DNA of 64,000 bases from Tropicimonas sediminicola. GTDB lineage: Bacteria; Pseudomonadota; Alphaproteobacteria; Rhodobacterales; Rhodobacteraceae. The stretch covers positions 496,001 through 560,000 of the forward strand of contig NZ_FZOY01000001.1 of assembly GCF_900188335.1 (NCBI RefSeq). The letters are read 5' to 3'. Shown one piece after another: positions 1,020-29,824 of this stretch. Numbering within the stretch: the first letter of the stretch is position 1; every line of letters starts with the position of its first letter. The notes under the pieces are model-generated. The model was not told where the DNA came from and searched no databases. It worked only from the letters and a program-made list of their open reading frames with translations. Made by a program: the position numbers and the translations under genes.

Positions 1020-2375
1020 TCAGACGGTGTCGATATAGAGCTCGATCTGCTCGGCCTTGGAGGTTTCCTGCATGTAATGCAACTCCTGCCGCTTCGTCAT
1101 CACGTAGTTCTGGATCAGTTCCGGCGCAAAGATGCGGGCGGTTTCCTCGCAGGATTCGAACCGGTCGATCGCATCCTTCCAGTTGGTCGGGATGCTCGGC
1201 AGGTCGAGCTTGTAGGCATTGCCGGTGATCGGCTCGGGCGGCATCTTGCCGTCCTCGATCCCGTTCATCGCGGCGCCGAGCACGGCGGCGATGGTGAGGT
1301 AGGGGTTCACGTCCCCGCCCGACAGCCGATGCTCGATCCGCCGCGCGCGGTGGTCGCCGCTCGGCACCCGGACGGCGGTGGTGCGGTTCTCGTAGGCCCA
1401 GCAGATGCCCGTCGGCGCATGGGCGCCGGGCACCATCCGGTCGTAGCTGTTGGCATGCGGGGCGTAGATCAGCGTGCTGCCCGGCATGGCATTGAGACAG
1501 CCGTTGACCGCGTGCAGCAGCAGGTTGCTGCCGGTGTCCGTGCCGTCGTCGAAGATGTTGTTGCCGTTCTTGTCGAGCACCGAGAAGTGCATGTGCAGCC
1601 CGGAGCCGGCGTAATCCTCATAGGGTTTGGCCATGAAGCTCGCGGCAAAGCCGTGGCGCCGCGCGAGGCCCTTGACCAGCATCTTGAACAGCCAGGCGTC
1701 ATCGGCGGCGCGCAGGGCATCTTCCTGGTGCATCAGGTTGATCTCGAACTGTCCGGTGCCAGCCTCAGAGATCGCGGTGTCGGCGGGAATGTCCATCGCC
1801 TCGCAGGCGTCGTAGAGCTCGGTGAAGAACTTGTCGAACACGTCGAGCGCGCGCAGCGACAGGATCTCGCCCATCATCCGGCGCTTGCCGGTCCGCGGCG
1901 AGGGCGGGACGCGCAGCTTCTGGCCGCTGTCGTCGATCAGGAAGAATTCCAGTTCCACCGCGACGACGGGCGTCAGCCCGCGGTCGGTGTAGCGGGCCAC
2001 CACGTTGGCCAGCGCGTGCCGGGGGTCGCCCTCGAAGGGGCGGCCGTCCTCGTGGAACATCCAGATCGGCAGCAGGCCGGTGGGCGTGTCGAGCCAGGGC
2101 ATCGGCAGGAATCCCCGCTCGGTCGGCAGCAGGACCCCGTCCCGGTCACCGGTGGCGAGCACCAGCGGGCTGTCGTCGATATCCTCGCCCCAGATGTCGA
2201 GGTTGAGCACGGACATCGGGAAGCGGGTGCCGCCCTCGATCACCTTGTCGGCGAAACGTACCGGCACGCGCTTGCCGCGCGGTTGCCCGTTGAGGTCGGC
2301 CGCAGCCACCCGGATTGCCTGGACATGCGGGTTCTTCCGCAGCCAGTTCTTCATCAGCAATTGATCGCGTATCAC
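1020..2375 (-). CDS. Glutamine synthetase family ligase (gamma-glutamylpolyamine synthetase-like)
   Basis: A complete 451-residue glutamine-synthetase-fold ligase, the usual length for PuuA/GlnT-type enzymes. The N-terminal domain contains ADLNGQPRGKRVP; the catalytic domain contains the metal/glutamate-binding stretches VELEFFLID and EAGTGQFEINL, and GSGLHMHFS with the ATP-site histidine. The start is GTG at 2373-2375 with GGAGA six bases upstream. The family condenses glutamate with an amine, and the substrate could be putrescine, spermidine, ethanolamine or another primary amine. It follows the ABC permease gene by about 30 bases, so the ligase is probably expressed with the importer. The short gap contains a TGATCA-centred AT-rich stretch that could be a secondary operator. 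Confidence 0.87.
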   Translation of the reverse strand: MIRDQLLMKNWLRKNPHVQAIRVAAADLNGQPRGKRVPVRFADKVIEGGTRFPMSVLNLDIWGEDIDDSPLVLATGDRDGVLLPTERGFLPMPWLDTPTGLLPIWMFHEDGRPFEGDPRHALANVVARYTDRGLTPVVAVELEFFLIDDSGQKLRVPPSPRTGKRRMMGEILSLRALDVFDKFFTELYDACEAMDIPADTAISEAGTGQFEINLMHQEDALRAADDAWLFKMLVKGLARRHGFAASFMAKPYEDYAGSGLHMHFSVLDKNGNNIFDDGTDTGSNLLLHAVNGCLNAMPGSTLIYAPHANSYDRMVPGAHAPTGICWAYENRTTAVRVPSGDHRARRIEHRLSGGDVNPYLTIAAVLGAAMNGIEDGKMPPEPITGNAYKLDLPSIPTNWKDAIDRFESCEETARIFAPELIQNYVMTKRQELHYMQETSKAEQIELYIDTV

Positions 2376-28977: not shown

Positions 28978-29379
28978 TCAGGGTGTGCCGGCAGGCGCAT
29001 CGGGATCGAAGCCCGGGGTCAGCAGGAGGTCGAGCATCGGCGAGATGTCCTCGATCTGCTCGGCGACCACGTGAACGACCGTCTGCTCCCGCTGCAGCCG
29101 CCCGGTGACCCGCAACAGCCGCCCGGCGATCACGGCGCGGCGATAACGCTCGTAGAGCTTGGCCCAGACCACCACGTTGCAGGTGCCGGTCTCGTCCTCG
29201 AGCGTGAGGAAGATCACTCCCTTGGCGGTTCCGGGCCGCTGCCGCACCAGTACCAGTCCCGCGACCGTGACCCGCGCGCCGTCCGGCGGGCGGTCGAGTT
29301 CGGCCGCCGGAATGCAGGCGGGCGGTCGGGGCCAGCTGTCCGGGTGCGGTGGGGGAGGGTGCGGCAGGCGGTCGGGCAT
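28978..29379 (-). CDS. Stand-alone OB-fold homologous to the C-terminus of error-prone polymerase DnaE2
   Basis: A 133-residue protein. Residues 37-113 ([19 protein letters not shown], then [16 protein letters not shown] and [22 protein letters not shown]) are the OB-fold that closes DnaE2, the ImuC polymerase of SOS mutagenesis. The polymerase, PHP and helix-hairpin-helix parts are absent, as is the terminal HPR...SRDFH segment. Residues 1-30 are Pro/His-rich and unlike DnaE2. The reading frame is intact with normal codon use. A LexA-type box ends two bases before the ATG at 29377-29379. It may be a deletion remnant of an imuA-imuB-dnaE2 cassette or a retained single-stranded-DNA-binding accessory. 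It is divergent from the ferredoxin gene. Confidence 0.75.
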
Positions 29380-29381
29380 GA

Positions 29382-29396
29382 GAACAAGTATCGAAC
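29382..29396 (-). promoter_or_regulatory. LexA (SOS) box, GTTC-N7-GTTC
   Basis: On the minus strand GTTCGATACTTGTTC ends two bases before the ATG of the DnaE2-tail gene. This is a perfect match to the direct-repeat LexA box of Rhodobacter and other alphaproteobacteria. A -35-like TGGACA sits 16 bases upstream of GATACT, so the box overlaps the -10 element and the message would be almost leaderless. Confidence 0.8.
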
Positions 29397-29467
29397 ATTC
29401 GTGCCGCTTGTCCAGCCGGCGTCCCGACTGGCATTGCCGGTGCGGATGGCCTATGTCAGCGGCGTAA

Positions 29468-29823
<356 letters not shown>

Positions 29824-29824
<1 letters not shown>

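Follow-up and report, generated by a model that had tools for sequence, protein, structure and literature searches.

Why would a bacterial genome encode, as a gene of its own, the OB-fold that ends the SOS polymerase DnaE2, with a LexA-type box directly upstream? The question is raised by a short open reading frame (ORF) in the window, by which we mean the whole 64,000-nt stretch of Tropicimonas sediminicola DNA analyzed here (Table 1). Residues 22–119 of its product match the DnaE2 model NF004225 at profile positions 942–1039 of 1047 (E 7.6e-34), i.e., at the C-terminal end only. The ORF scores 116.9 bits with this model versus 34.6 bits with the best DnaE1 model, as expected for a DnaE2-type OB, and 56 bits with the OB-fold family PF01336, above the cut-off of 27. 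The preliminary description, made from the sequence alone, had called the product a DnaE2-type OB-fold devoid of polymerase, PHP and HhH parts, and both points are borne out. The N-terminal (PHP) region, the polymerase core and the HhH are absent from the frame, which consists of the OB and a short Pro-rich start; these regions are encoded by a separate gene. An AlphaFold2 model of the protein (mean pLDDT 87) displays the five strands of an OB-fold, and its best 50 PDB fold matches are OB-containing proteins (AsnRS/AspRS/LysRS, RPA, CST, PolD). Since no C-family polymerase is found among these best 50, it is the sequence, and not the fold by itself, that points to DnaE2. No solved chain is related to the protein by sequence at E 0.01.

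Table 1 Features of the stand-alone OB locus, in window positions
Feature	Position	Strand	Remark
Stand-alone DnaE2 C-terminal OB-fold gene	28978..29379	-	133 aa; ATG at 29379, stop TGA 28978-28980; OB strands in residues 36-111
LexA-type box GTTC-N7-GTTC (GTTCGATACTTGTTC)	29382-29396	-	2 nt before ATG
-10 element GATACT inside box	29387..29392	-	TATNTT in most relatives
-35-like element TGGACA	29409..29414	-	-35 to -30 from A of ATG
Divergent 2Fe-2S ferredoxin (PF00111), upstream neighbor	29501..29824	+	Synteny marker, outside the system

Where, then, is the rest of the polymerase? A search of the genome with the DnaE2 model returns three matches: the OB ORF itself, a polymerase on contig C15 that falls below the DnaE2 cut-off and is taken for DnaE1, and, over the cut-off, a DnaE2 core at G000:C17:251025-253922. 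This core, an open frame of 1006 aa, covers profile positions 5–939, and core and OB are adjacent, non-overlapping parts of one DnaE2 profile. Alignment with fused DnaE2 sequences shows that the core stops in the linker just past the HhH (...HPLALLR..LTP) and that the stand-alone ORF begins in the same linker. The polymerase, finger and HhH domains of the core score above their Pfam cut-offs; the PHP region is covered by the DnaE2 profile but gives no Pfam PHP match at E 0.001. A frameshifted or misassembled DnaE2 is ruled out, because a distance of 271 kb separates the end of the core from the OB gene along a single contig, and the core locus, when fetched, showed no OB. DnaE2 is apparently encoded by two genes in this genome, and the ORF, which had been regarded as a possible lone accessory, is most likely the C-terminal part of a split polymerase, encoded apart from a core that lacks the OB domain. 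The two parts do not sum to the whole fused protein, since the C-terminal HPR..SRDFH tail of fused DnaE2 is missing from the aligned stand-alone OBs. The tails of OB-less cores vary between genomes. Those of L180 and L219 (G157 and its sister G095), THPRNVRFFS and RHPRSVRHFG, resemble the fused HPR..SRDFH tail; the OB may have been excised from inside the gene in these two genomes, or the likeness may be due to chance.

The promoter of the OB gene is equally telling. We take GTTC-N7-GTTC to be the alphaproteobacterial type of LexA box. GTTC and GAAC motif groups are both named in the accessible text of the Dinoroseobacter shibae LexA paper (PMC6473078). The bare pattern occurs twice in the window, against 1.39 matches expected, and 148 times in the genome, where the reversed control gives 61. 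Its second occurrence in the window (1107-1121, plus strand) has a G+C-richer spacer, about one match being expected by chance. A tighter pattern, GTTCNATANTTGTTCNNATG, is found once in the genome, at the OB site itself, and provides weak evidence as it was fitted to that site. It is therefore the conservation of the box that makes it significant, the bare pattern alone not being beyond chance. We collected 118 distinct stand-alone OB sequences from 80 contigs and from the best-matching further genomes, a set in which close relatives are over-represented, and dropped L103, leaving 117. The box lies near the start in 111 of them, 1–3 nt upstream in 100 and exactly 2 nt before the ATG in 83; it is absent in six (L024, L049, L083, L100, L153 and L216). 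A chance box is ruled out by this conservation in relatives and not by the box itself. In the 84 OB promoters whose box lies 2 nt from the start, two elements are conserved: T-(T/G)-G at positions -35 to -33, and TATNTT at positions -13 to -8, both counted from the first base of the start codon. These are normal promoter distances when counted from the start codon, so that the transcript is predicted to begin at the start codon itself, with the box covering the -10 element. The OB gene thus carries what distinguishes a member of the LexA regulon, a box of the presumed alphaproteobacterial type that overlaps the promoter and is conserved in relatives, and we infer that it is leaderless and under LexA-type control. 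The box two bases before the ATG, its overlap with GATACT and the predicted, nearly leaderless message had all been described from the sequence of the window, and the relatives support them. One split genome, G114, has an OB gene with neither the box nor a ferredoxin nearby, and would therefore express its OB in another way.

The other genes of the presumptive regulon carry LexA-type boxes as well. Among OB-less cores, 25 of 27 have one, always within 100 nt, versus 25 of 4884 control windows; this count leaves out the duplicate L002 and the edge pieces L197 and L224. These boxes read GAAC-N7-GAA(C/T) or (G/A)TTC-N7-GTTC, most often GAACAAAA.GTGAAT, and none was found at L213 and L215. A LexA-type box also precedes imuB in 28 of 30 fetched loci, at a distance of more than 150 nt in two of the 28; the control rate, with true boxes left in, does not exceed 473 of 6000 windows. 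The genome under study has a lexA, and its imuA-like gene has a LexA-type box. Its mutasome genes are all present, imuB on C12, the core on C17 and the imuA-like gene on C14 (E 1.9e-16). The last of these is the weakest call, because its NF033429 score of 39.4 bits is below the cut-off of 150. Counted by hand, all 58 genomes of the family with a near-complete OB-less DnaE2 have an imuB match (E <= 1e-20, the weakest in G121) and 56 of them an imuA match (E <= 1e-5), which is absent in G175 and G064 at that threshold. The imuA-like gene, imuB and the core thus occupy three contigs, and with the OB gene at its distance from the core they do not form an adjacent cassette. Full dispersal is not general, since imuB lies within a few kb of the core in several split relatives.

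These data bear on an explanation put forward in the preliminary description, in which an internal deletion of an imuA-imuB-dnaE2 cassette fused the cassette promoter to the tail of dnaE2. Such an event would account for a LexA-type box on the OB gene like those of cassette genes; we consider it highly improbable, because the imuA-like gene, imuB and the dnaE2 core are located elsewhere and the neighbor of the OB gene is the same ferredoxin across the clade. The ferredoxin is found within 500 nt upstream of 107 of the 117 stand-alone OB genes, and at seven more the distance is 805 to 5266 nt; it was not seen at L063 and L216, and the contig of L031 is too short. The boxes differ too: that of the OB gene has the GTTC orientation with the TATNTT -10 inside, whereas those of the cores are mostly, and the 28 of imuB all, of the GAAC type. 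No relative with an intact imuA-imuB-dnaE2 beside the ferredoxin at the place of the OB gene was seen. The preliminary description had also proposed to check for a full imuA-imuB-dnaE2 elsewhere in the genome: the genes are present, the first as an imuA-like gene, and they are dispersed, with a DnaE2 that lacks its OB, a feature that had not been foreseen.

If core and OB are two parts of one polymerase, they should occur together. A common set of 149 genomes of the family, representing 148 genera, was searched both with the DnaE2 model and with the ORF, and the matches were sorted by hand. A fused DnaE2 is present in 64 genomes, a near-complete OB-less DnaE2 in 58, both in G066 and neither in 28; the first two classes comprise 64 + 58 - 1 = 121 genomes, to which contig-edge pieces of G029, G109 and G150 add up to 124 genomes over the cut-off. 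The stand-alone OB gene is found in 56 of the 58 genomes with a near-complete OB-less DnaE2 and in none of the 63 with fused DnaE2 only (Fisher p 1.2e-32, a value that ignores shared descent). Two candidates were rejected during sorting: G016 as a split genome, in which contig C2 ends within the core and has an OB piece at its start, and L103/L220 (G028) as a stand-alone OB, which is a contig-edge piece of a fused gene. G066 has, besides its split DnaE2 (L193/L234), a fused imuA-imuB-dnaE2 cassette on another contig (L194) that is nearly identical to that of G010 (L191/L231; imuA 99%), suggesting that a complete cassette was transferred into a split genome. In a further set of loci, L212, L214 and L230 (G121, G064 and G167), from A+T-rich, fast-evolving genomes of ~1.9-2.5 Mb, core and OB are strongly diverged and the OB box is kept.

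The pairing has exceptions on both sides. Four of the 28 genomes in the "neither" class carry a stand-alone OB, and three of these (G092, G099 and G149) are drafts, 91, 76 and 84% complete. The fourth, G082, is 100% complete in 7 contigs and is a true exception: OB, imuB and imuA-like genes are present and no DnaE2 is over the cut-off, the best match (E 1.2e-176) being at DnaE1 level. At the usual position of the OB ATG this genome reads ATC (L217/L275), so that translation would have to begin within the box or farther into the gene, and the ATC may mark early decay of the OB gene. G082 fits the notion that the OB protein has become an independent SOS-induced single-stranded DNA-binding factor that has lost contact with DnaE2, its co-presence with an OB-less DnaE2 being mere inherited history. 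Sequence conservation speaks on both sides of this rather unlikely alternative. Twenty-five positions are conserved in stand-alone OBs and, in fused OBs, either lack conservation or hold a different residue. They include W16, P17, R18 and P19, the W-P-R-P start at the N-terminus, with others elsewhere; the broader range of clades in the fused set has to be borne in mind for these 25 positions. Column conservation correlates only modestly (0.43) between 114 stand-alone and 49 fused OBs, and the loss of the C-terminal tail, too, would suit a new function. However, the 49 fused OBs have 29 positions with a conservation of at least 90%, and 25 of these are equally conserved, with the same residue, in the 114 stand-alone OBs; moreover, an OB-less DnaE2 has been kept in 58 of the 149 genomes, nearly always together with an OB gene. 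Core and OB distances between genomes also rise jointly in fast lineages (r 0.95, partial 0.92 given the ferredoxin, 22 genomes); the high partial correlation leans on three such lineages, the values without the long-branch genomes being 0.60 and 0.54 (19 genomes). A DnaE2 in two pieces, rather than an independent factor, is the reading we retain.

On the side of the core, the OB gene was not found in two of the 58 OB-less genomes, G075 and G095. In G075 a close ferredoxin is absent too; the contig of G095 extends only 222 nt beyond the ferredoxin, and these 222 nt contain neither box nor OB. A short ORF does follow the ferredoxin of G095 at the expected place of the OB, just before the contig end (L274, G095:C75), and it is reminiscent of the start of an ISAs1-type transposase. 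G173, one of the 28 genomes and 84% complete, contains a 5'-cut core that ends at profile position 971, well inside its 19,925-nt contig; no OB was found, which makes it the third OB-less core without a partner, all three being in drafts. These genomes, together with the report that some DnaE2 and DnaE3 lack an OB domain (in the accessible part of PMC3919608), would be explained if an OB-less DnaE2 worked without any OB-fold and the OB gene were a relic or dispensable leftover of the fission. We regard this as very unlikely in view of the selection acting on the OB gene. For nine distinct OB sequences of the genus of T. sediminicola, dN/dS has a median of 0.18 and a maximum of 0.33 over 36 pairs, with synonymous sites partly saturated; 21 columns are invariant in an alignment of 88 stand-alone OBs; and the frames are intact, in-frame stops appearing in 3 of the 118 extracted rows, at the natural C-terminus. 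The conserved box, which persists even in the very diverged G121 and G064, argues in the same direction. The OB gene is, by these measures, under purifying selection and its decay is ruled out, in agreement with the earlier view that the intact frame favors retention.

Phylogenetic trees indicate how the two-gene form arose. In an unrooted quick tree of 77 cores, computed without bootstrap, the 27 OB-less cores, G114 included, all lie to one side of a single branch (SH-aLRT 98) once L197 (G016:C2) is set aside; the gene at that locus spans a contig end, its OB piece being at the other end. In an unrooted tree of 73 OB domains, the 26 stand-alone OBs (30 picked, four dropped as duplicates) likewise fall on one side of one branch, with support of 94/85 and in 96% of 200 bootstrap trees. 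Some rows of these trees have long branches, the G114 OB among them. G114 is the split row nearest to the fused side in both trees, as expected if core and OB derive from one gene by one fission. The topologies fit an origin of the split forms by one ancient fission in a clade of Rhodobacteraceae; a later re-fusion of core and OB is formally possible because both trees are unrooted.

Based on the above data, we propose that this clade uses a two-gene DnaE2 whose OB acts in trans as a subunit under LexA-type (SOS) control, an explanation that we hold to be probable. The split, the pairing of core and OB, the boxes and the selection can be read from the genomes, and from them we infer that core and OB bind, that the OB contacts single-stranded DNA, and that LexA controls both genes and damage induces them. 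One ancient gene fission would have cut the OB-fold from DnaE2 and placed it under its own leaderless LexA-type promoter, leaving the rest of the polymerase (N-terminal region, palm, fingers and HhH) as a separate gene, also with a LexA-type box. Upon DNA damage, LexA would free all four genes at once, those for the OB and the core as well as imuB and imuA, and the OB protein would most likely join the OB-less core, or an ImuA-ImuB-core complex, non-covalently. The OB of C-family polymerases holds the template strand, and the OB in trans would do the job of the fused one, holding the single-stranded template during translesion synthesis. More tentatively, the OB might be a detachable regulatory subunit: full competence of the mutator polymerase would await the expression of a second, leaderless gene with a LexA gate of its own. 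The supply of OB would then govern damage-induced mutagenesis in both timing and dose, and other polymerases or ImuB may make use of the OB as well. Among the 149 genomes, 56 retain a domain integral to most C-family polymerases as a distinct gene with its own promoter, alongside an OB-less DnaE2. The split form offers a natural means of adding or removing the DnaE2 OB-fold, both in vivo and in vitro, and thereby of probing its role in error-prone synthesis. Our data also suggest that some DnaE2 counted as OB-less have an overlooked partner gene.

Erill et al. (2006) reportedly described the imuA-imuB-dnaE2 cassette, and their work may cover this clade. We found no description of a separate DnaE2 OB gene in the literature searched, a search that covered titles and the beginnings of abstracts. 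The D. shibae LexA paper (PMC6473078) does not use the terms OB-fold, dnaE and imu in its main text, and "OB-fold" and "OB domain" are absent from the main texts of PMC10421592 and of a 2026 survey of bacterial polymerases (PMC12926913).

A plasmid imuA-imuB-dnaE2 cassette is reported for D. shibae (PMC9426580). Compared with a fused DnaE2 working with imuA-imuB, the system described here has two genes that together span nearly the whole DnaE2 profile, LexA-type boxes, and imuB and an imuA-like gene in the same genome; it differs in that two polypeptides are made from unlinked genes and in that the HPR..SRDFH tail is lost. The cyanobacterial polymerases split by an intein (accessible part of PMC3919608) are also C-family polymerases in two genes; room for an intein is not visible here, since the OB frame is limited to the OB and its Pro-rich start and the core tails vary. 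DnaE2 complexes with ImuA and with ImuB or a split ImuB (iPolY + ImuB-C), as presented in the accessible part of the 2026 survey (PMC12926913), likewise place a part of the mutasome on separate chains; there ImuB is split, here the polymerase. A further comparison is with the several DnaE2 sequences without an OB domain noted by Timinskas et al. (PMC3919608), among which the present core would count. The accessible part of that paper makes no mention of a separate OB gene, whereas in T. sediminicola the missing domain appears as a gene of its own.
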